From IMG/VR virus record IMGVR_UViG_3300036799_000277, positions 1-21,370 of that record: a stretch of DNA of 21,370 bases; one strand, given 5' to 3'. A model generated the notes under the pieces. The model made no database searches and was not told the origin of the DNA. It saw only the letters and a list, made by a program, of their open reading frames with translations. The position numbers and the translations under genes were made by a program. The stretch's first letter is position 1; every line of letters starts with the position of its first letter. This stretch comes from a virus. Below are positions 2,106-21,370 of the stretch, in pieces.

Positions 2106-3452
2106 ATGGCCGAGACAGGAATCGTCGGCCGCGTCCTCGCGGCGGCGCGTTATGCGTTGACCGGGGCGGCTCCGGCCGACTGGTTCGGGCCGTCCGCGCC
2201 ACTGGCGCCGATGGCGCCGGCGGAGGTGAAGGGGCGGCAATATGATTATCCGGTCGCGATCAACCTCAATTTCGTGCCGCGGAGCGAGGAGCCGATCGGC
2301 TTTGCCAGGCTGAAGGCGCTGGCGCGGCATTGCGACACGCTTCGCATCGTCATCGAGGGGCAGAAGGACAAGATCGAGGCGCTCGACTGGGCGATCAAGC
2401 CGCGCCACGGGCAGGACGGGGATTGCGATCCGGCGGTTGCGGCGATCAAGGCGCAGCTCGAAAGCCCGGACGGCAATCTCGACTGGTCGCAATGGCTGCG
2501 GGCGCTGCTCGAGCAATTGTTCGTGCTCGACGCGGTGGCGATCTACCGGCGGCGGACGCTGAGCGGGACGCCGCATTCGTTCGAGCTTTTGGACGGCGCG
2601 ACGATCAAGGTGCTGCTCGACCAGAGCGGACGGGCGCCGGCGGTGCCGGAGCCGGCCTATCAGCAGGTGCTGAAGGGGGTGGTCGCCGCGGATTTCACGC
2701 GGGCGGAGCTGCTTTATTACCCGCAGAACGTGCGGGCGGACCATGCCTACGGCTATTCGCGGGTCGAGCAGATCCTGACCACGGTCGAGACCTCGATTGA
2801 GCGGATGAAGAGCCAGAAGGCCTTCTTCACGCACGGCAATCTTTCGGACGGCTTCTTCGAGGCGCCGGCGGGGACGACGCCCGACCAAGTGCGGCAGGTG
2901 GAGGAGAGGTGGAATGCCTTGCTCGGCGCGGGGAATGTCGAGAACCGGCGGCTGAACCAGTTTTTGCCGGCCGGCTTCAAGTGGAACGGGATCGGTCAGC
3001 CGCCGCTGCAGGAGGCGTTCGACGAATGGCTGATCCGGCTGATCTGCTTCACCTTCTCGACCTCACCGCAGCCTTTCCTCAAGCAGGCGGGGCTGGGGCA
3101 GGGGGGCCAGGAAACGCAATATATGGCGGCGGAGGCGGCGGGCCTCGCCACGATCATGGCTTACGTAAGGCGGGTGATGAACCGGGTCCTGCGCGAGGAC
3201 TTCGCACGGCCGGACCTGGAATTCGCCTGGGTGGAGGATCGCGAGTTCGATCCCGAGGTGAAGAACAGGATCGAGGAATCGCAGCTGAGGACCGGGCGGC
3301 TGACGCTGAACGAGGCGCGGGACCGGAACGGGCTGCAGCCGCTCGACGGCGGCGACGTGCCGCTCATCTATACGGGCGGCGGCGCGGTGCGGCTGGCGGA
3401 TGTGACGGCGGCGACGCCGAATGCGCCGGAGGCGGGGGAAGGTGCGGCATGA
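2106..3452 (+). CDS. Phage portal protein
   Basis: This 448-residue protein is the predicted dodecameric portal at the capsid vertex, through which DNA enters and leaves. The length and layout fit HK97/SPP1-like portals. A variable N-terminal arm is followed by a mixed alpha/beta wing (residues about 60-200). The stem and crown region contains YGYSRVEQIL, then the helix-rich FDEWLIRLICFTFSTSPQPF, and a C-terminal TLNEARDRNGLQPLDGGD segment typical of portals. A GAGGAG ribosome-binding site at 2095-2100 overlaps the terL stop, indicating translational coupling. The last four bases (ATGA) overlap the start of the next gene. Confidence 0.87.
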   Translation: MAETGIVGRVLAAARYALTGAAPADWFGPSAPLAPMAPAEVKGRQYDYPVAINLNFVPRSEEPIGFARLKALARHCDTLRIVIEGQKDKIEALDWAIKPRHGQDGDCDPAVAAIKAQLESPDGNLDWSQWLRALLEQLFVLDAVAIYRRRTLSGTPHSFELLDGATIKVLLDQSGRAPAVPEPAYQQVLKGVVAADFTRAELLYYPQNVRADHAYGYSRVEQILTTVETSIERMKSQKAFFTHGNLSDGFFEAPAGTTPDQVRQVEERWNALLGAGNVENRRLNQFLPAGFKWNGIGQPPLQEAFDEWLIRLICFTFSTSPQPFLKQAGLGQGGQETQYMAAEAAGLATIMAYVRRVMNRVLREDFARPDLEFAWVEDREFDPEVKNRIEESQLRTGRLTLNEARDRNGLQPLDGGDVPLIYTGGGAVRLADVTAATPNAPEAGEGAA

Positions 3453-3781
3453 TTCCGATTTGCCCCTGCTGCGGCTACGATATCAGCCTCGACGCGCCGG
3501 TGGAGCGGGCGGGGATCGCGATGGCGCCTTACGGGCCGGTGCGGTTCAACGGCGCCGAGATCCGGCTGACGCGCGGCGAGAGCGCGGTCTTGTGGGCGCT
3601 GATGAAGGCGGAAGGGCGGCCGCTGCCGCGGCTGGTGCTCGCCGAGCGTTACGGCCAGCGCGAATATAGCGACAGCAATTCGGTGGACGTGCTGCTGACG
3701 CGGATCCGGCAGAAGCTGGCGCCGCACGGCGAGGTGCCGATCCGCAATTGCCGCGGCGTGGGGGTCTATATCGGCGCCTGA
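3449..3781 (+). CDS. Small OmpR/PhoB-type winged-helix protein
   Basis: This 110-residue protein is a stand-alone winged-helix DNA-binding domain without a receiver domain. Residues from about 40 to the end follow the response-regulator C-terminal pattern: LTRGESAVLWALMKAEGRPL, then SVDVLLTRIRQKL as the recognition helix, and the wing hairpin IRNCRGVGVYIG. The N-terminus has a single metal-knuckle-like CPCCG (Cys5, Cys7, Cys8), half of a usual zinc ribbon. The ATG overlaps the portal stop (ATGA), so it is made with the head proteins and not from the lysogeny region. Its role is unknown. It could regulate late transcription, bind phage DNA, or serve as a structural adaptor that reuses the fold. 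The fold call is firm and the function is open. Confidence 0.8.
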   Translation: MIPICPCCGYDISLDAPVERAGIAMAPYGPVRFNGAEIRLTRGESAVLWALMKAEGRPLPRLVLAERYGQREYSDSNSVDVLLTRIRQKLAPHGEVPIRNCRGVGVYIGA

Positions 3782-9937: not shown

Positions 9938-10245
9938 TCGCGGCGGGCATCGAGGGCGGCTCGAAGCGCGCTGTCGAGGAGGAGTGGGGCCTCGACGACG
10001 TCGCCGCCCAGCGCGAGCATTGGGCGGAATTCGGGCCGCCCGTGCATATGGCGGTGGCGGTGTTCGCCGCCGCCTGGGGCGTGAAGCTGATGCGGGAGCG
10101 CGAGGCGGAGGCGCCGCCGCCGGATGAGGTGAGGGTGACGGGACCGAGCATCGCCGAAATGGCAGTGCTGGCGCGGCCTGCTGGCGACGACACTCTGGCG
10201 GCGTCGCTCGCGATCATGAAGATGCAGGAAGGCGGCAGCGGATGA
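9859..10245 (+). CDS. Tail assembly chaperone, -1 frame (T-type) extension
   Basis: A second coding frame, one base behind the short chaperone frame, encodes a well-formed domain from about 9901: LADQLRALVHELIAAGIEGG, EEEWGLDDVAAQREHWAEFG, AVFAAAWGVKLMREREAE, then a helical end SIAEMAVLARPAGDD. It has no usable start at its 5' end; the first GTG (10042) and ATG (10048) are deep inside the domain. The simplest reading is a gpG-gpT-like fusion translated from 9563 with a -1 frameshift near 9859-9900. The fusion would bind tape measure and tube protein. The ATGA at its end overlaps the tape measure start. The exact fusion point is not established. Confidence 0.7.
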   Translation, partial: GGSPGSRAGGRGGSLADQLRALVHELIAAGIEGGSKRAVEEEWGLDDVAAQREHWAEFGPPVHMAVAVFAAAWGVKLMREREAEAPPPDEVRVTGPSIAEMAVLARPAGDDTLAASLAIMKMQEGGSG

Positions 10246-13070
10246 GCGACACCGAGCTGAAGATCGAGATCACGGTCGATATTGGCTCTGTCGAGCCCGC
10301 CATCACGCAGGTGAAAAGCGCCATCGAAGGCCTGGGGGGTTCGAAGAGCGCAATCGAAGGGCTTGGCGCCGCGGTCGAGGGAGCCAAAGCGCATTTCGCG
10401 TCGATGGGCGCGGAGACCGAAGGCTGGTCTTCGAAACTCATGAGCAGTGCGGGTGGCGCCCTTTCCCAGATCACTGAGCTCGCGGGGGGTGCCGGCGCGA
10501 TCGCGGGGGCGGCGATCAGCGCGGGACAGAAGGTGTATGAGTTTGCCGAAAGCATCGCCAAGACGGCGGAAGAGAACAAGCATCTTGCCCAATCCTCCGG
10601 ACTGAGCACGGGCCGAATTCAGGAGCTCCGCGCCGTTTCGACGATGACTGGAACGTCCGTCGATACTCTTGCCAAGGGAGTGGGGCAGCTCAGCACCAGT
10701 GCATTGACCGCCGCGGCGGGCAACAGCACGAGCGCCGCAGCCCTGAAGAAGCTGGGGGTCAGCGCCAATGACGGCAAGACCGATCTCCAGCGCTTCTTCA
10801 CGATTGCCGACGGCTTCAAGAAGCTGCCGGACGACACGCAGAGGGCGGCGCTTGCGACGCAGATTTTCGGACAATCAGGTAAGGACCTGCTGCCCATCCT
10901 CAGCCAGGGATCAGCCGGCCTCAACGACATGATGAGCAAGGCCCAGGATTACGGGGTCGCGGATACCGCAGTCGCTCAGTCCGCCCAAGCGAACGGTGAA
11001 GCGCTTGCGGATAGCCTGCACGAAGGTGAGCTCGGCTGGCAGGGGCTTACCAATGTCGCTGCCGACGCATTCGGCCCGGTGCTCAAGGAGGTGATCGACG
11101 ATATCAATTCGCTGATCAAGGCATTCATCCAGAGCTACACGGAAGGGGGCGTCGTTGCGGTTATCGTCCAGGTCCTGAAGACTGTATTCACCGAGGTGGT
11201 GACGGTTATCGAATCGGTCGCTGCCATTTTCGGTGCGCTGTGGGACGCGGTGAGCGAGGTGGTGAGCTCCATTGTCGACGCCGTCACCGGCGCATTCGGA
11301 GCCAAGCTTCCCAACATGTTCGGAAACTCAGACACCGCACTCAACATCTTCAAGGACGTCTTCACGATCGTGACCCAGACGGTTGTCGGTCTGATCGACG
11401 TGATCGTGGGAACGGTGCGGCAGGTAATCGACTGGTTGGGCCTCTTCGCCAAGGTTGCGAATGATGCGCTTACGCTGAACTGGGGCAAGATCGGTTCCGA
11501 CTGGAAGTCGGGTATGGACAAAATCACCTCCGATGCGGAGGCGGATGCGAAGCGGGTCGGCGACGCCTGGAGGAAGGCAGCCGAGGCAGCCAATGATATC
11601 CGCAACGGCGGCAAAGGAGCGCCGCCGCCGGCAAAACCGGGCAAGAGCGGCGGGGGCCAAGGCGACAGCAGCGATGGCAAAAGCAAGCATCACGGGGGTG
11701 CTGGCGGCGGTGGCGGTAGTGGCCATGGTGGGGGTCACGCAGGCGGGGCCGGCCGCCGGGGAAGCAGTGGCTCACCCGCCGGCGCTGCAACGCAATCGCA
11801 TGACGACGACGCCGGGACGAAGGCGCTGGAGCAGGAACTCGACAAACGCAAGGCGGCGTATCAGGCGGAGCAGGCGGCGCAGAAGACCTTCCTCGATTTC
11901 AGCAAGCAGCAGGAGCTGGACTATTGGAACGAGGTCGTAAAGCGCACGAACATCAGCGAGAATCAGCGCAACGCGGCGAAGCAGAAGGCGGCGGAGCTCA
12001 GCGTCCAGATCGTCAAGGAGGAGCATGAGCAGCAGATTCAGATTGACGAGGACAAGGCACAAACCGCGCTTCGGCTGAAACAGGGGCAGATACAATCCGA
12101 CGAGGATGCCGCCAAGTTTCGCGTCCAGATGGGTCAGGAAACCGAAGAGCAGCTTCTCGCGCAGGAGAAGGATTTCGAGAAGCAGCGGTACGATGCGGAG
12201 CGTGCCGACCTGCAGCGACGAGCGGAGTTGCAGAAGAACAACAAGGTCGAATATCAGAAGATTCTGGATCAGATTGTCCTCTTGGCCCAGCAGCACCAGC
12301 AGAAGCTGAATCAGCTCGAGCAGCAGGGCGTTCTCCAGCGGACACAGAGCGAGCGTCAGGCGATCAACTCGATCGCATCTTCCTGGAGCCAGGCGATCGG
12401 CAAGATGCTGACGCTCCAGTCGTCCTTCGCCAGCACGCTCAAGAGCATGTGGCAAAGCGTGCAGCAGGCTGTCGCCAGCATGATCTCCTCGACCGTCCAG
12501 AAATGGATCACCAGCGAACACACCAAGAACGCGGCGACGGGAGCCGGCACGGCCGAGAGGACGGCCATGGAGCAGACGGCCGCGACCCAATCGATCGCGA
12601 CCTCGGCTTTTTCGGCCCTGAAGCAGATCGCGCACCAGGCCGCCGTCGCCGCCGCCGGCGCTTATTCCGCGATTGCGCGTATTCCCGTCGTTGGACCCGT
12701 CCTGGCGCCGGCGGCAGCCGCCGCCGCCTTGATCGCCGTCTACAAGCTTGGCCAGTCCGTATTCAGCGCGGAGGATGGAGCGGGCGATGTCCCGTTCGAC
12801 AATGCGCCCTTTCTGCTTCACCGCAACGAAATGGTGCTCCCCGCGAACATCGCGGCGCCGTTGCGGTCGATGATCGCCGGCGGCGGGGCCCCGGCCAACA
12901 GCAACGCCCCCGCGCCGGCGAATGACGGCGGTGGGGACGCCCACCTCCACCTCCACGGGGACATCATCCACAATCCGGCGCAGCTGGAAGCATGGTTCAA
13001 GCGGAATGCACCGGCGATCGGTGCGGGCGTCCGGCAATATGTTCGTCAAGGGGGGACGACGGGTCGCTAG
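10242..13070 (+). CDS. Tail tape measure protein
   Basis: This 942-residue protein sets tail length and is the largest product in the window. It begins ATGA-overlapped with the chaperone extension. In order it has: a short tandem repeat (KSAIEGLGGSKSAIEGLGAA, about 25-45), an alpha-helical Ala/Ser-rich region, and two hydrophobic stretches (about 303-355 and 370-410) that could cross or open the inner membrane. A Gly/His/Ser/Lys-rich linker (about 455-515) is followed by a long coiled coil (about 525-705) and another hydrophobic helix (about 795-835). The end, APFLLHRNEMVLPANIA, is typical of related tape measures and is followed by a His-rich tail (DAHLHLHGDIIH). I infer a siphovirus tail; by the usual rule of thumb for tape measures it would be roughly 140 nm long. 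Confidence 0.88.
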   Translation: MSDTELKIEITVDIGSVEPAITQVKSAIEGLGGSKSAIEGLGAAVEGAKAHFASMGAETEGWSSKLMSSAGGALSQITELAGGAGAIAGAAISAGQKVYEFAESIAKTAEENKHLAQSSGLSTGRIQELRAVSTMTGTSVDTLAKGVGQLSTSALTAAAGNSTSAAALKKLGVSANDGKTDLQRFFTIADGFKKLPDDTQRAALATQIFGQSGKDLLPILSQGSAGLNDMMSKAQDYGVADTAVAQSAQANGEALADSLHEGELGWQGLTNVAADAFGPVLKEVIDDINSLIKAFIQSYTEGGVVAVIVQVLKTVFTEVVTVIESVAAIFGALWDAVSEVVSSIVDAVTGAFGAKLPNMFGNSDTALNIFKDVFTIVTQTVVGLIDVIVGTVRQVIDWLGLFAKVANDALTLNWGKIGSDWKSGMDKITSDAEADAKRVGDAWRKAAEAANDIRNGGKGAPPPAKPGKSGGGQGDSSDGKSKHHGGAGGGGGSGHGGGHAGGAGRRGSSGSPAGAATQSHDDDAGTKALEQELDKRKAAYQAEQAAQKTFLDFSKQQELDYWNEVVKRTNISENQRNAAKQKAAELSVQIVKEEHEQQIQIDEDKAQTALRLKQGQIQSDEDAAKFRVQMGQETEEQLLAQEKDFEKQRYDAERADLQRRAELQKNNKVEYQKILDQIVLLAQQHQQKLNQLEQQGVLQRTQSERQAINSIASSWSQAIGKMLTLQSSFASTLKSMWQSVQQAVASMISSTVQKWITSEHTKNAATGAGTAERTAMEQTAATQSIATSAFSALKQIAHQAAVAAAGAYSAIARIPVVGPVLAPAAAAAALIAVYKLGQSVFSAEDGAGDVPFDNAPFLLHRNEMVLPANIAAPLRSMIAGGGAPANSNAPAPANDGGGDAHLHLHGDIIHNPAQLEAWFKRNAPAIGAGVRQYVRQGGTTGR

Positions 13071-13110: not shown

Positions 13111-13141
13111 GGCGCTGAAGCCGAGCTTAGGCTAGGGCGCC
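13111..13141. terminator. Possible bidirectional hairpin between convergent genes
   Basis: GGCGC (13111-13115) and AGCC (13119-13122) pair with GGCT (13130-13133) and GCGCC (13137-13141), forming an interrupted stem between the tape measure end and the stop of the reverse gene. No T-run follows on either strand, so termination activity is uncertain. Confidence 0.3.
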
Positions 13142-13772
13142 GAGAATACGATCGTCGTCGCGCCATAGGCGCCGTTATGGTTGCTTTTTGACGAGACCGA
13201 CCGGCTGTGGCCGAAGAGGTCGTTATACTGGAACCTGATGCCGCAGAGGGGGAGGGTGCCACTGTCGTGGGTTCCGAAATGGCTGCCGCCGCTGCCGCTC
13301 CCGGCCGAGCCGGTGATGCTGGGCTTCACGACATTTTCGAAGAAGCGGTAGAGGGGCAGACGCTCGGCGTCGGGGCAGCCGGTGCCGCCGAGAATGACAT
13401 TGGTGAAATCGTAGAGGGCGGTGTCGTCATATTCCTCAGCCGTCTCCGCCGCCATCGGCGCGCCGTAGAGATCGAAGCTGATTTCGCGGACGAGACCGGC
13501 GGCATCGAAGCGCAATTGGGCGTGGGTCTGCCAGAGGCGGCCCGGGAGGGTGACGCGGAAGCGGAACTGGGCCTCATCCCGAAGTGAGCGGCCGTTTACG
13601 TCGACTCGGCCAGGGCCTGTCTGCTCTCGGCGAGATCGGTTTCATCGATCGCCATATGCGCTCGCAGGGCCGCGAGGCATTCGTCGAGGGGGCGGCCGAT
13701 GCAGGCCGGCGCGTGCGGCGCTGGGGCGGGAGCGGCCTGAACTGTGGCCATCGTCAGCGCCAAGATCAGCAT
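13132..13772 (-). pseudogene. Reverse-strand secreted protein gene, apparently frameshifted
   Basis: A gene opposite to the tail operon is split across two frames. The first part runs from ATG 13772 (GAGGGGG site just upstream) to TAA at 13596: 58 residues with a signal-peptide-like start (MLILALTMATVQAAPAPAP) and then CIGRPLDECLAALRAHM and ETDLAESRQALAEST. The second part, in the frame one base back, is open from about 13641 to TAG at 13132. It reads VDVNGRSL, FRFRVTLPGRLWQTHAQLRF, GLVREISFDLYGAPMA, ALYDFTNVILGGTGCP and LPLYRFFENVVKPSI, with no ATG or GTG for its first 40 or so codons. The parts join naturally near 13600 into one exported protein of about 215 residues. The join requires one base lost (or two gained), so it is a pseudogene or a sequence error. 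I do not recognise the family. Its location suggests a lysogen-expressed accessory gene. Confidence 0.65.
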
Positions 13773-15373: not shown

Positions 15374-15822
15374 CCGAGGCCGAGGCGCGCGCGGCGGTGG
15401 TCGCGGAAGCCCTCAGCTGGGAGGCGACGCCCTATCACGAGCGGGCGCGGATCAAGGGCGTCGGCGTTGACTGCGCCCAATTCCCGGCCGCCGTCTACGA
15501 GGCGGTGGGGCTCATTCCGCACCTCGAGCCCGATTATTGCGCGCAATGGATGCTCCACCGCGACGAGGAACGCTTTCTCGGCTGGGTGCTGCCGCATGCG
15601 CGCGAGATCGGGCGTGAGCGGCTCGGGCCGGGCGACTTCGCGATCTGGAAGTTCGGCCGCACCTACAGCCACGGCGCCATCGTCATCGATCCGCCGCTCG
15701 TGATCCATGCGGTGATCCGCGGGGGCGGCGTGATCCGCGGGGACATGGACCGCGACGTCGAGCTCGCTTCGCGCGCGGCGCGCTTCTTCACCTTGTTCGG
15801 AGGCAAAGATGGGGCTCGGTAA
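15370..15822 (+). CDS. NlpC/P60-family tail peptidase
   Basis: This 150-residue protein corresponds to the RcGTA gp14-like cell-wall peptidase (TIGR02219) carried on the tail tip. The catalytic triad is visible: Cys35 in GVDCAQF, His101 in YSHGAIVI and a third residue His113 in VIHAVI. WEATPYHERARIKGVGVDC is the expected opening, and LGPGDFAIWKFGRTYSHG precedes the histidine. It would cut peptidoglycan locally so that DNA can pass. It starts at GTG inside the hub stop (GTGA). Its 3' end overlaps the following gene by 14 bases. Confidence 0.87.
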   Translation: MTEAEARAAVVAEALSWEATPYHERARIKGVGVDCAQFPAAVYEAVGLIPHLEPDYCAQWMLHRDEERFLGWVLPHAREIGRERLGPGDFAIWKFGRTYSHGAIVIDPPLVIHAVIRGGGVIRGDMDRDVELASRAARFFTLFGGKDGAR

Positions 15823-18397
15823 GTCCACCTCCACCTCCGCCACCAAGCTGAACGGCATTTCCGTCCAGAGCTCGGTGCTGGGCGTTCCGATCACGATCGG
15901 CTGGGGCCGCAACCGGATCAAGTGCAACCTCATCTGGTACGGCGCCTTCACCGCCATCGCGCACACGACCAAGCAGAGCTCCGGCAAGGGGCTTGGCGGC
16001 GGCTCGAAGAACACGACCTATACCTATACGGCGTCGATCATCATGGGCCTGTCCGAGGGGCCCATTCAGGGCATTCGGACCATCTATCGCGACACTTCGG
16101 TGTTCACGACGCTCGCCGCCGCGGGGCTCAGCCTTGCCACCGGCACCGCGACGCAGGCGCCATGGGGATATCTCACGAGCAAGTTTCCGGGGCAGGCGAT
16201 AGGCTATTCCGGCATCGCCTATGTCTACGCGCAGGATTATGCGCTCGGCGACAGCGCGAGCTTGCCCAACCACAGCTTCGAGGTCGATTTCGGGACGCAG
16301 ATGGCGGGGCTGGCGGATGCCGACCCGAAGGACATCCTGACCGACTTCCTCACCAACCCGCAATACGGCCTTCCCGGCTGGGCGACCGGGTTGCTCGGCG
16401 ACCTCGGCAATTATTCGCTCTATTGCCGCGCCAACAATCTGCTGCTGTCGCCGGTACTGGAGAGCCAGGCTACCGCATCGGACTTCATCACCGAGATCAT
16501 GACCGCGACGAACAGCGAGGTCTTCTGGTCCGAAGGCGTGCTGAAGGTCGGCACCTATGGCGATGCCGCCGCGAGCGGGAACGGCGTCTCGTGGACGCCG
16601 GACCTCACGCCGGTCTACGACCTTGGCGAGGACGATTTCATTCCGACCAACGGCAATCCGGTGCAGCTGGAGATCGTCGACCAGTCCGACGCCTACAATA
16701 TCGTCCAGGTCGAATATCTGGACCGCGCCAATCAATACAATTCGGCGATCGCCTCGGCGCAGGATCTGGCGAACATCGTCCAGTACGGCAAGCGCAAGCA
16801 GGACCCGACGACGCTCCACAGCCTCTGCGACGCCCAGATCGCGCAGCATTCGTCCCAGCTCCTCCTTCAGCGCACGCTCTACCGGCGGGAGCTCTATCAT
16901 TTCACGCTGCCGGACGATTTCGTGCTGCTGGAGCCGATGAGCGACTATGTGACGCTCACCACCGTGACGGACGAGCTTCGTCTCGACCGCCAGCTCGTCC
17001 AGATCGTCGAGATCGACGAGGACGAGACGGGGAATCTGACCTTCGTCGGTGAAGGGGTGAATATCGGCACGGCTTCGGCGGCGCTTTACGCTCCGCATTC
17101 GGCATCAAGCTTCAGCCGCAACGGCGATGTCGCGCCCGGATCGGTTTCGGCGCCGGCGCTGATCAACGCGCCGACCTCGCTCACGAGCGGCGACCCGGAA
17201 GTGTGGTGCGCGGTCGCCTCGACCTCGCCGAATTGGGGCGGATGCGAGGTCTGGGTCAGCGTCGACGACATCAGCTATTCGCGCGTCGGCACCATCGACG
17301 GACCGGCGCGCTACGGCGTGCTGACCACCGCGCTGCCGAGCCATGCCGACCCGGATACCAGCAACACGCTCAGCGTCGATCTCTCGGCCTCGCTCGGCAT
17401 CCTCGGCAGCGCGACCTCCGCCGAAGCCGACGCCGGGGCCTCGCTGTGTGTGGTGGGAAGCGAGCTCGTCACCTACCAGGCGGCGGCGCTGACCGCGGCC
17501 AATCGTTACGACCTGACGGCGCTGCACCGCGGCTTTTTCGGAACGTCGCCGGCCTCGCATGCGAGCGGGGAGCGCTTCGTCAGGCTCGACGATGCGATCT
17601 TCAAGTTCAGCTATGCCAGCCTCAACGTCGGTTCGACCATCTACGTCAAGCTGCCCAGCTTCAACGTCTACGGCCGCGCGCTCGAGGATATCGCGAGCGT
17701 CACCGCCTATAGCTTGGCGCTCGCGCCACAGACGGCGCTGCCGAATCGGGTGAGCAACCTGCGGCTTGCCGCCGGCGGCACGACCTGGACCGGCGACCAG
17801 ATCAACCTCGTCTGCGATTCCTCAGACCGGGCCGAAACCTATCGCTTCGACATCTACAAGAGCGATGGCACGACGCTGCTGCGCTCGATCGCCAGCAGCA
17901 TCTCCTCGGCGACCTACACCGCGGCGATGGCGGCGATGGACGGGGCACAGCGCACTTATGTCATCGATGTCGTTGCCTCCAACGCGGCCGGCTCGGCGGC
18001 GGCCTCCTCGACGATCACGGTGACCAATGCGGCGCCGGCGGCGGTCACCGGCGTCTCCGCGACGGGCGGCACGACGACGGGATCGGTGAGCTGGAGCGCG
18101 GCGTCCGATCCCGACCTGCTCGGCTATGCCCTCTATTTCTCGGGCACGTCCGGGTTCAATCCCAAGAGTGCCGGGTCGCTCGTCTCGACCCTGGGGCTGA
18201 CGCAGACGATCTATGGCCTCGCGGCCGGCACCTATTATGCGAAGGTCGCAGCTTTCGATCCCTGGACGTCCGACCCCGACCTTCTGCACTTCAGCTCCGA
18301 GGTGAGCTTCGCGATCAGTGCCGGCGGCGGCGGCGGCGCGCCGTCGGGCGGCGGCGGGGGCGGCGGCGGCTATAGCGGCCGGGAATTGAGCTTCTAA
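15809..18397 (+). CDS. gpJ-like tail tip protein with fibronectin-type C-terminus
   Basis: This 862-residue protein is the main tail tip or baseplate protein, akin to lambda gpJ and RcGTA gp15. The N-terminal part (KLNGISVQSSVLGVPITIGW, GLSEGPIQGIRTIYRD) is typical. Residues about 225-400 match the Phage-tail_3 type hub domain (SDFITEIMTATNSEVFWSEG, YNIVQVEYLDRANQYN, YHFTLPDDFVLLEPMSDYV). Residues about 640-836 look like two fibronectin-type modules (ASNAAGSAAAS, SWSAASDPDLLGYALYFSG). A Gly run (about 837-858) ends in YSGRELSF. No TIM-barrel-like region such as that of the longer RcGTA protein is seen before the hub domain. GGAGG at 15799-15803 precedes the ATG, which lies inside the peptidase gene. 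Confidence 0.87.
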   Translation: MGLGKSTSTSATKLNGISVQSSVLGVPITIGWGRNRIKCNLIWYGAFTAIAHTTKQSSGKGLGGGSKNTTYTYTASIIMGLSEGPIQGIRTIYRDTSVFTTLAAAGLSLATGTATQAPWGYLTSKFPGQAIGYSGIAYVYAQDYALGDSASLPNHSFEVDFGTQMAGLADADPKDILTDFLTNPQYGLPGWATGLLGDLGNYSLYCRANNLLLSPVLESQATASDFITEIMTATNSEVFWSEGVLKVGTYGDAAASGNGVSWTPDLTPVYDLGEDDFIPTNGNPVQLEIVDQSDAYNIVQVEYLDRANQYNSAIASAQDLANIVQYGKRKQDPTTLHSLCDAQIAQHSSQLLLQRTLYRRELYHFTLPDDFVLLEPMSDYVTLTTVTDELRLDRQLVQIVEIDEDETGNLTFVGEGVNIGTASAALYAPHSASSFSRNGDVAPGSVSAPALINAPTSLTSGDPEVWCAVASTSPNWGGCEVWVSVDDISYSRVGTIDGPARYGVLTTALPSHADPDTSNTLSVDLSASLGILGSATSAEADAGASLCVVGSELVTYQAAALTAANRYDLTALHRGFFGTSPASHASGERFVRLDDAIFKFSYASLNVGSTIYVKLPSFNVYGRALEDIASVTAYSLALAPQTALPNRVSNLRLAAGGTTWTGDQINLVCDSSDRAETYRFDIYKSDGTTLLRSIASSISSATYTAAMAAMDGAQRTYVIDVVASNAAGSAAASSTITVTNAAPAAVTGVSATGGTTTGSVSWSAASDPDLLGYALYFSGTSGFNPKSAGSLVSTLGLTQTIYGLAAGTYYAKVAAFDPWTSDPDLLHFSSEVSFAISAGGGGGAPSGGGGGGGGYSGRELSF

Positions 18398-18412
18398 AGC
18401 AAAGGTGTGCCC

Positions 18413-20245
18413 ATGCAGTTCATCCAGTTCACGGCCGCTCGCGCTGATACCGGTGCGGTGCTCCCTTATGCGACGGCGACCGTTTATCTCGCCGGAACGC
18501 TGACAAAGGCGGCGCTGTTCGACCCCGGCGGGACTGCGATCACGAATCCCGTCACGGCGGATGTGAACGGGCTCGTCGGCTTCGCCGCGGCGAATGGGGC
18601 CTATGACGCAGCGGTGGTCTCATCTGATGGCTCCTACACCACCCCTGGGATCAAGGATCTCCAGCTCTATGACCTAACGCAGCTCGACAGTCAGGTTGCC
18701 GCGGCCGTTTCCGCTGGTTCGACGGCATCGAACGCCGCGAACATCGTGAGTGCTTACACGCTCAAGAAGGTGCTGCAGCGCATCCGTGTGCTCGAGGAGA
18801 TGAGCCGCCCCTATCTCCCCGCCCTCACGACCTCCGGCGCGACCTATTACGGTGTCTATTCCACCGAGCGTCTGGTCAGCAGCTATTCCGGTGCCCTCGC
18901 GCGGGTCATCAACCCCACGGGCGGCGCGACCGTCGATCTCGGCTCCGGAGAGACCAGCATTGGTACGTTCGAGATTGAGAATTTGCGGGTATCGGCCGTC
19001 AACGTGAAGGTCGATAAATGGTACGATCAGGGCGGCAGCGCCCGCGACTTGACGCAACCGACGGCGGCCAGTCGCCCCTCGTTCCACGAAAGCGGCACGA
19101 TCAACGGGAAGCTGGCGATGACCTTCCCCGACGTCGAAAGCAGTGTCGGCCGCTTCAGTCACTTCGTCAGCCCAACCATAAGTGTGGATCGCCAGAACTT
19201 TACGATGTTCCTCGTGATCGACCCAACCGCGAGCTATAAAAACCAAATCTATTTTCGGCTGGAGACCAGCGTACCGGCCACGAATATAACTATGTTCAAC
19301 CTGTCCTCCGGCAGCGCGGTGGACAACGGCAGGCTCGCCATCAACGTTGGCACCATACAGCAGACCCACAAATATATTCAGGCGACCGCGCACGTCCTGG
19401 TCATTCGCGGCACCTCGGGGGTGCTGGACGTATGGCTCGACGACGTCCACGTACCGCTGACAAATACCGCCTCCACCTCGGCCAAATTCTACCTGGGCTC
19501 CGATCCGACGAACACGGCCACCGCCAACTTCCGCTGCGGCGCGTGCATCCTCAATGACAAGGGACTGAACGATGCCGACGTGGCGGCGGTCTCGGCCGTG
19601 CTGCGCGAGCGCTTTCGGCTTTCGACTGATTACGACGCAACGATCGTCTATTCGGGAACGAGCCGCACCGTCTCGGGCCAGGCCGACAACGCCTTCTCCA
19701 AGATCTTCTACGAGCAGAAATATTTCGCCCGGAATTACCGGGTCATCAACCTCGGTCAGGACGGGCAGGCGCTGAGTACCACGCTCACCAACTTCGCGGC
19801 GAGAGAAGCGACGGCCTATGACGCGACCAAGCCGTGGATCTATGTGATCGACGATCCGATCAATGATCTCGGCGGCCTCGGATCATCGTCCAACCCGAGC
19901 ACGATCTACAACACGACCATTGCGGGCCTCATCACGGCTGCCAAAGCGCTCGGCTCCAACGTGCATGTCATCGTCCGCACCTGCCTCCCGCAGGATTCGA
20001 CGAGCGTCTATAGCCGCACCTCCGCGGCGATCGAGGCCGACCGCCAAACGCTGAACACCCTGATCCTCGCCAACACTGCCGGCGCGGGCCTGGTGATCGA
20101 CACCGCCGCGCTCCCGACGATGGGAACATATCCGACGAACCCCGATGACGCGACCAAGTACGTCGACAGGCTGCACCTGACCGCGCTCGGCAACTCGCTC
20201 CTTGCCCCTGCGAATGCAGCGCCGATTGAAGGGTTGAGCTTGTAA
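18413..20245 (+). CDS. Tail spike/fibre with C-terminal SGNH-hydrolase-like domain
   Basis: This 610-residue protein is the receptor-binding protein. Domains in order: a beta-rich virion adaptor (about 1-90, with PVTADVNGLVGFAAANGAYD), a short trimer-like coiled region (about 95-130), and a lectin/arabinofuranosidase-like jelly roll (about 140-390; KWYDQGGSARDLTQPTAASR and INGKLAMTF). From about 410 there is an SGNH-type esterase domain. All four blocks can be matched: Ser417 in SGTSRT, Gly448 in NLGQDGQ, Asn484 in DDPIND, and Asp585/His588 in DRLH. Block I reads GTS where GDS is usual. It probably removes acyl groups from host surface polysaccharide. ATG 18413 was chosen over GTG 18407 because AAGG lies 7 bases before it. 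Base composition becomes more AT-rich in the middle. Confidence 0.8.
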   Translation: MQFIQFTAARADTGAVLPYATATVYLAGTLTKAALFDPGGTAITNPVTADVNGLVGFAAANGAYDAAVVSSDGSYTTPGIKDLQLYDLTQLDSQVAAAVSAGSTASNAANIVSAYTLKKVLQRIRVLEEMSRPYLPALTTSGATYYGVYSTERLVSSYSGALARVINPTGGATVDLGSGETSIGTFEIENLRVSAVNVKVDKWYDQGGSARDLTQPTAASRPSFHESGTINGKLAMTFPDVESSVGRFSHFVSPTISVDRQNFTMFLVIDPTASYKNQIYFRLETSVPATNITMFNLSSGSAVDNGRLAINVGTIQQTHKYIQATAHVLVIRGTSGVLDVWLDDVHVPLTNTASTSAKFYLGSDPTNTATANFRCGACILNDKGLNDADVAAVSAVLRERFRLSTDYDATIVYSGTSRTVSGQADNAFSKIFYEQKYFARNYRVINLGQDGQALSTTLTNFAAREATAYDATKPWIYVIDDPINDLGGLGSSSNPSTIYNTTIAGLITAAKALGSNVHVIVRTCLPQDSTSVYSRTSAAIEADRQTLNTLILANTAGAGLVIDTAALPTMGTYPTNPDDATKYVDRLHLTALGNSLLAPANAAPIEGLSL

Positions 20246-20255
20246 GAATGCTTAC
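20242..20255. terminator. Small hairpin spanning two convergent stop codons
   Basis: GTAAG (20242-20246) pairs with CTTAC (20251-20255) around AATG. The stem contains the TAA of the spike gene and, on the other strand, the TAA of the acyltransferase gene. It is short and lacks a T-run, so it is a weak terminator candidate at best. Confidence 0.2.
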
Positions 20256-21370
20256 GTCATGGGTGCCGCGATGGGTGAGTGAGTCTTACTGGCAAGCTTT
20301 CCGACCTCGATGCCCGGCTGCTCGACTATCCGGTACATCACCCAGGCGACGAGATAAGAAAGCGGGATCACGGTAACGACCATAGCGCCGACGCCGCTCA
20401 GCAGTGCGTAGCCTCCCTTGTGCAGCATCACGGCCAGCGGGGCGCCGACGAGGGCGATCACGAAAATGTGGATCAGATAAAGAGAGTATGACGTTCCCGA
20501 CAGGAAGCGGACGACGCGAGACCGAGACAGCTGTGCGGCCCAAAGTCCCCGCATCCAGCAGGCGGTGAAGACGAGCAAAATCGCAAGCAGCGACAGGAGC
20601 GAAACGCCATATTCGCGGGCCTGGACAACGAAAGTGACGAACGCCAGGCCAAGAAGCCACTTCTGCTTCCTCGCCTCATAGATCAGCATGCCGACGAGGA
20701 ACATCGGAAGCTTCAGCACCAGCAACGACGGCTCCTCGTAATATGGCCAGAGGCCACGGCTCCCGCCGAACCAATACACCCTCGTCAACACGACCGAGAC
20801 GACCAGGATCGCGACAGCCACCCGCCACATCGGAAATCTTCTCGCCGCCATATAGATGAGCGGAAACACCGCGTAGAATTGCATCTCAAGCGAGAGGCTC
20901 CAATCGGGGAGGTTCGTGGAGAAGGAATAAGACGGGACCAAGCCGAAAAGGAACGTTGCGTGCAAGAGCAGGCTGAGAGGCCCAAAATCTTGATAGAGAG
21001 GGCCGTAGACGTGATCCTGAGACCAGTTTGCGAAGTGGAGATGCTGCAGATTATCCATGGCTGGCGCGATGAGAGGCCACAGGGCCGCCATAGCCGCAAG
21101 AGCGACATAATATGCGGGGGCGATCCTGAAATAGCGGCGAAGATAGAAGCGCCTCCACGTCTTCCATGAGAACGGCTCAGCCTTTCGGCGATCGGATTGG
21201 TAGACCATCAAAAAGCCCGAAATGACCATGAAGAGGTCAACGGCCTTCTTCGGATCGGCAATCATCGGAAGCGCGACCCCACCCCAGATGAAGCAATGGG
21301 CGACGGCGACCCACAGTGCGGCGAAACCCCTGAAGAGGTTGAGAAAGGCAGATTCTTCGTCGCGATACAT
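20252..21370 (-). CDS. Membrane O-acyltransferase (OafA/acyltransferase-3 family)
   Basis: This 372-residue polytopic membrane protein probably transfers acetyl (or another acyl group) from the cytoplasm to a cell-surface polysaccharide. Family motifs are clear: LFRGFAALWVAVAH at the N-terminus (Arg14, His25), DLFMVISGFLM, RRFYLRRYFRIAPAYY, LPDWSLSLEMQFYAVFPLIY, and SGTSYSLYLIHIFVIAL near the C-terminus, with about ten hydrophobic segments between and after them. Length is normal for a stand-alone acyltransferase-3 protein. The ATG coincides with the window edge, so promoter and ribosome-binding site are outside and a longer N-terminus is possible. It faces the spike gene across six bases. 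Composition is more AT-rich than the head genes. A host gene just beyond the prophage remains possible, but the tight packing argues for a phage accessory gene. Confidence 0.87.
   Translation of the reverse strand: MYRDEESAFLNLFRGFAALWVAVAHCFIWGGVALPMIADPKKAVDLFMVISGFLMVYQSDRRKAEPFSWKTWRRFYLRRYFRIAPAYYVALAAMAALWPLIAPAMDNLQHLHFANWSQDHVYGPLYQDFGPLSLLLHATFLFGLVPSYSFSTNLPDWSLSLEMQFYAVFPLIYMAARRFPMWRVAVAILVVSVVLTRVYWFGGSRGLWPYYEEPSLLVLKLPMFLVGMLIYEARKQKWLLGLAFVTFVVQAREYGVSLLSLLAILLVFTACWMRGLWAAQLSRSRVVRFLSGTSYSLYLIHIFVIALVGAPLAVMLHKGGYALLSGVGAMVVTVIPLSYLVAWVMYRIVEQPGIEVGKLASKTHSPIAAPMT

Follow-up and report, generated by a model that had tools for sequence, protein, structure and literature searches.

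Deacylating spikes of virions and acylating enzymes of prophages have usually been studied apart. On the virion side, an SGNH esterase domain is carried by Klebsiella prophage receptor-binding proteins and by gp63.1 of coliphage G7C; two of the Klebsiella prophage tail fibres and the G7C protein have been shown to be active esterases, and an interplay of acetylation and deacetylation has been discussed for Klebsiella (PMC13123978). On the prophage side, the temperate Shigella phage Sf6 encodes Oac, a stand-alone acyltransferase-3 (AT3) protein that acetylates the receptor polysaccharide and is established to block superinfection by Sf6 (PMC9558356). AT3 proteins have two essential motifs, R/K-X10-H in the first membrane helix and RxxR in the first cytoplasmic loop, and in OafA, OafB and OatA an AT3 part is fused to an SGNH domain (PMC9558356). 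Both kinds of function come together in the Serratia temperate phage vB_SspM_BZS1, where a tail fibre with an acetyl-esterase domain is encoded close to a PF01757 acyltransferase on the opposite strand; roles of this pairing in entry, exclusion and release were proposed as speculation in 2020 (PMC7556043).

Here, we describe such a pair in the complete, linear IMG/VR record IMGVR_UViG_3300036799_000277 (21370 bases; hereafter the window), which is a putative prophage of Sphingomonadaceae type. Its siphovirus structural cluster comprises terminase, portal, protease, capsid and tape measure genes, followed by tail tip genes that include one for a tail protein of the Rcc01698 type, and the spike and acyltransferase genes lie at its right end (Table 1). 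Base 1 falls on the start codon of one gene and base 21370 exactly on that of the acyltransferase, so the ends look like the result of gene-boundary trimming and not like phage ends. The right edge of the window is thus an edge of the record, and a conversion cassette situated there has probably been cut off by automatic trimming.

Table 1. Features of the spike-acyltransferase region, with positions in the window
Feature	Position	Strand	Evidence and remarks
Tail tip protein (Rcc01698-like, Phage-tail_3), conserved anchor gene 5' of the spike	15809..18397	+	Pfam Phage-tail_3 E 6e-27, Rcc01698_C E 1e-19; phrog_1101; 93% identity in nearest relative
Spike protein: N-terminal anchor, middle domain (phrog_10356, virion structural), C-terminal predicted SGNH hydrolase	18413..20245	+	
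Spike N-terminal anchor module, ~94 aa	18413..18694	+	Common to all spike classes with this anchor; ~47-91% identity over residues 1-94 among otherwise unrelated spikes
SGNH hydrolase domain (predicted acyl esterase)	19604..20242	+	Pfam E 5e-5; alignment to cellular SGNH enzymes; hhalign probability 95%
Predicted SGNH residues (numbered from the GTG at 18407)	Ser419 (19661-19663), Gly453 (19763-19765), Asn486 (19862-19864), Asp587 (20165-20167), His590 (20174-20176)		
Gap between the two stop codons, six bases (GAATGC)	20246..20251	.	
Stand-alone AT3 membrane protein	20252..21370	-	Pfam E 1e-26, phrog_3333 E 5e-48; invariant R14-X10-H25 and R79xxR82

Elsewhere in the cluster, an opposite-strand ORF (13132-13515, -) lies between the tape measure gene and the next tail gene; in the two chromosomal relatives (L090 and L088), the equivalent slot, between the tape measure and DUF2460 genes, is taken by different genes, likewise on the opposite strand, and it may be a second cargo site. 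The tape measure (10242-13070) is 40% identical to that of the nearest relative, IMGVR_UViG_3300049889_000049, versus 87-96% for the neighbouring proteins, pointing to an apparent local replacement. Between the portal and protease genes, a small protein (3449-3781, +) seems, by eye only, to combine a CPxCGYD motif with a winged-helix-like region.

The first-pass annotation of this DNA had read the spike as carrying an SGNH-like domain, its opposite-strand neighbour as a polysaccharide O-acyltransferase, and the two genes as lying tail to tail, six bases apart; profile searches agree with the first two predictions, and the spacing is confirmed. No terminator-like hairpin was found in the six-base gap. 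The spike ORF runs from an ATG at 18413 to a stop codon at 20243-20245, and although a GTG at 18407 is also in frame, we favour 18413 as the start because homologues begin with MQ.

Judged by sequence comparison, the C-terminus of the spike is a predicted SGNH hydrolase with putative esterase activity. The Pfam family Lipase_GDSL_2 matches residues 437-596 with 24.3 bits (E 5.2e-5), which is under the curated cut-off of 32.9 bits. A profile built from this domain and that of the nearest relative (78% identical) matched cellular SGNH hydrolases with E-values of 1e-15 to 1e-3; in 398 Sphingomonadaceae genomes, it found one strong match (E 1e-15) and eight weaker ones, and four of those read are classical SGNH hydrolases that show the GDSIT and DxLHP motifs. 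A profile-profile comparison with these four enzymes in hhalign gave an E-value of 2e-8 at a probability of 95%. The catalytic Ser, Gly, Asn and His of blocks I, II, III and V are present and, together with the Asp of the Asp-x-x-His motif, align with those of the cellular enzymes (in L154, the Asn is off by one column), while block I reads GTS versus GDS in the SGNH consensus. AlphaFold models, computed from two-row alignments, did not confirm an alpha/beta/alpha fold, with pLDDT values of 34 for the full spike and 44 for the SGNH domain, and a Foldseek search with the latter model returned GDSL esterases among its matches, none of them significant.

The acyltransferase, whose stop codon occupies 20252-20254, covers positions 2-326 of the 326-position Pfam profile Acyl_transf_3 (PF01757) with its residues 8-343, scoring 94.3 bits versus a cut-off of 31. 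Both AT3 motifs are intact, and their residues are invariant in all eight aligned members. The enzyme is predicted to add acyl groups to the bacterial surface. Its gene has a GC content of 57.9%, compared with 61.5% for the spike, 69.7% for the terminase and 66% for the window.

What lies beyond the record edge can be seen in the nearest relative, in which the tail protein is 93%, the acyltransferase 82% and the spike 70% identical to that of the window. There, the acyltransferase belongs to a three-gene opposite-strand cassette, with genes for a family 2 glycosyltransferase (GT2) and a PglD-like hexapeptide acetyltransferase upstream of it on the same strand; it starts four codons further upstream than in the window, and the PglD-like gene overlaps this start. 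Past the cassette, a phage lysozyme gene returns to the late direction, and more distant relatives have holin and endolysin genes past the acyltransferase, where their sequence reaches. The acyltransferase therefore lies inside the phage in these relatives, and very likely in the window as well. A bacterial origin of the gene, taken in through a wrong prophage boundary, might be suspected from the record stopping on its start codon and from the abundance of AT3 genes in bacterial chromosomes; such contamination is ruled out for the relatives by the lysis genes, and we regard it as extremely improbable here. The first-pass annotation would have been contradicted by a conserved host gene outside the prophage, and its view of a phage gene stands. 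The placement is that of a moron: the gene has the opposite orientation and a lower GC content and, in the relatives, is bounded by the spike at one end and by lysis genes at the other.

The same neighbourhood bears on the question of substrate. AT3 proteins have many substrates, including peptidoglycan (PMC9558356), and with lysis genes adjoining it, the acyltransferase might act on another molecule, either on peptidoglycan, to confer resistance to lysozyme-type endolysins, or on a glycolipid. We consider this very unlikely, given that its closest phage families, phrog_3333 and phrog_6705, consist of O-acetyltransferases of the O-antigen type, that the protein has no fused SGNH domain, unlike OatA, and that its GT2 and PglD-like partners are glycan-building.

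For a comparison across relatives, we scanned with six tail proteins, which yielded 64 viral loci, and added prophages from Sphingomonadaceae genomes; acyltransferases were located by a local profile 3' of the tail gene, and Pfam confirmed representatives of each class. After merging near-identical loci, an acyltransferase follows the spike in 14 distinct loci, always on the opposite strand, and this recurrence shows that the arrangement is not due to chance. The spikes share the N-terminal anchor and then continue into different modules, while the acyltransferases form three classes, A (the window and its nearest relative), B and C, with ~22-28% identity between and 48-100% within classes. 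Spike class I, that of the window, is paired with A; eight distinct loci combine class II with B and three combine class III with C, although these counts are not independent, as most loci fall in one tail group of 19 rows. Class IV occurs with C in one locus (L106) and without an acyltransferase in two (L093 and L124), and class V has none. The association between spike class and acyltransferase class is significant (p 5e-5, permutation over 16 merged entries). In the tail tree, spike classes are intermixed on close backbones; classes II, III and IV, for instance, occur in one tail group, and classes II and IV appear in two separate groups. Taken with the class association, this intermixing indicates that spike and acyltransferase have been exchanged together, and exchange of both as a block is indeed seen on near-identical tail backbones.

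Physical linkage alone could explain this block exchange. The acyltransferase may be an independent moron, a general coat-modifying enzyme directed against other phages, predators or stress, which stands beside the spike only since a recombination hot spot lies there, ahead of the lysis genes. Relatives do carry other cargo at this site, namely an FkbM methyltransferase together with the AT3 gene, or a glycosyltransferase and an acetyltransferase in the chromosomal copy G036, or nothing in L093, and the AT3 protein varies freely inside spike class II. Yet its class tracks that of the spike across tail backgrounds, and it was found only in phages whose spike has the shared anchor and in none of the others examined; we take this explanation as a real possibility, if a doubtful one.

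Acyltransferases are missing from a number of relatives, among them L093, L124 and L100, and none was found beside the esterase-type spikes of L058 (SASA), L102 (GDSL) and L100. By a hand count that ignores ancestry, 14 phages have both an esterase-type spike and an acyltransferase, five have the esterase only, none has the acyltransferase only and ~12 have neither (Fisher p 9e-5). The esterase assignment is weaker for spike classes II-V than for the spike of the window: searching the records with the GDSL and SASA families of Pfam gave few matches, the reading of class II rests on the tail-fibre family phrog_4201, shared with a SASA-bearing relative, weak GDSL matches and mutual homology underlie the reading of classes III-V, and direct hhalign comparisons of classes II-V with the cellular SGNH profile were negative. 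The suggestion of a coupled system thus holds insofar as class follows class, but not for class IV, which occurs with and without the gene, nor for L058 and L102, which do without it despite their esterase-type spikes.

A similar division appears in how the two proteins diverge. Co-variation of spike and acyltransferase, the comparison proposed in the first-pass annotation, is found at the level of classes across related phages, but not within class II, where spikes are 75-98% identical, acyltransferases fall to 48% identity, and the two are uncorrelated (Mantel r 0.14, p 0.39). This looser pairing argues against a strict cycle in which one bond is made and broken, and a common acyl bond as the target of both proteins is one possibility only, which we do not favour. 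In its strongest form, the AT3 protein would add exactly what the spike esterase takes off, and the coat of the carrier would block esterase-less phages while its own virions pass or detach. This idea fits two predicted activities of opposite direction whose genes are neighbours and are swapped together, and progeny detachment was suggested by the authors of the BZS1 study (PMC7556043). We nevertheless think it improbable, because acyltransferases only ~50% alike accompany class II spikes that are ~90% alike. A spike removing exactly the group added by the AT3 protein would also find more substrate on a lysogen, not less.

Two copies of the phage family reside in Sphingomonadaceae chromosomes (G036 and G159), and a class II member is among the chromosomal ones. 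Integrases are present in records of other family members; no tyrosine integrase was found in the acyltransferase-bearing records searched or in the stretch of ~39 kb that was read at each of the two chromosomal copies. A serine recombinase lies ~30 kb from the G159 copy, around which no clear attachment-site repeats were detected. Behind its spike genes, the G036 copy encodes a GT61 glycosyltransferase and an acetyltransferase resembling AlgX (Pfam ALGX E 1e-6; L087:3979-6107, -); by their predicted functions, these two genes form another set for modifying the coat at the equivalent site. In the G159 copy, an additional acyltransferase-3 gene, not related to the first, lies past the lysis genes (L089:6350-7438, +).

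The reading that we prefer, and to which we give about even chances, is that the SGNH spike serves entry while the acyltransferase on the opposite strand serves lysogenic conversion by changing the receptor of the carrier, both being exchanged as one module. At adsorption, the SGNH-type C-terminus of the spike would bind and probably deacylate the surface polysaccharide of the host. As the cassette lies on the other strand and is thereby free of late transcription, the acyltransferase could be expressed from the resident phage independently of the late virion genes. Alone, or in the nearest relative together with the glycosyltransferase and the PglD-like acetyltransferase, it would acylate the surface glycan of the carrier, and the acylated coat would present an altered receptor to superinfecting and released phages alike. 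The likeliest benefit would be the exclusion of phages that share the receptor, as proven for Oac of Sf6 (PMC9558356). Since the spike anchor and tail sequence are conserved on one flank and the lysis genes on the other, recombination could swap spike specificity and acyltransferase as a single module. More tentatively, and rather less likely than not to apply, each spike esterase class and its own acyltransferase class might form a matched module, so that receptor recognition and receptor masking are traded together and one recombination event provides a new receptor along with the means to close it to competitors.

With several spike-acyltransferase combinations on nearly the same tail, this phage family offers a natural experiment for asking if the use of a receptor and its masking evolve together as one unit, in a host group, the Sphingomonadaceae, in which the relation between the two has hardly been studied. 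The data further suggest that the boundaries of some prophages in catalogues fall within conversion cassettes of this kind. Searches with the spike, the SGNH domain and the acyltransferase (tblastn) gave no match in 50,697 phage records, so there is no isolated relative with a detectable form of the pair.

Among the described systems, Sf6 differs in that its spike is an endorhamnosidase and not an esterase, and oac maps beside the integrase gene, according to a reference cited in PMC7556043. For the Klebsiella prophages and G7C, which have other hosts and another spike architecture, a neighbouring AT3 gene is not described in PMC13123978. OafA, OafB and OatA contain the same two folds as the pair in the window, but in one fused membrane protein, whereas here they are encoded by separate genes on opposite strands, with the SGNH part on the virion spike. 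BZS1, finally, is an unrelated phage of an unrelated host, in which two extra genes lie between the pair and the esterase is of the SASA type (PF03629); it is a single case, for which no co-exchange of classes was analysed (PMC7556043). The pairing and its interpretation were already published, as speculation, for BZS1, and what we add is that the pairing recurs in a phage family unrelated to it, that a cassette of several genes exists, and that exchange as a block is seen at the level of classes.
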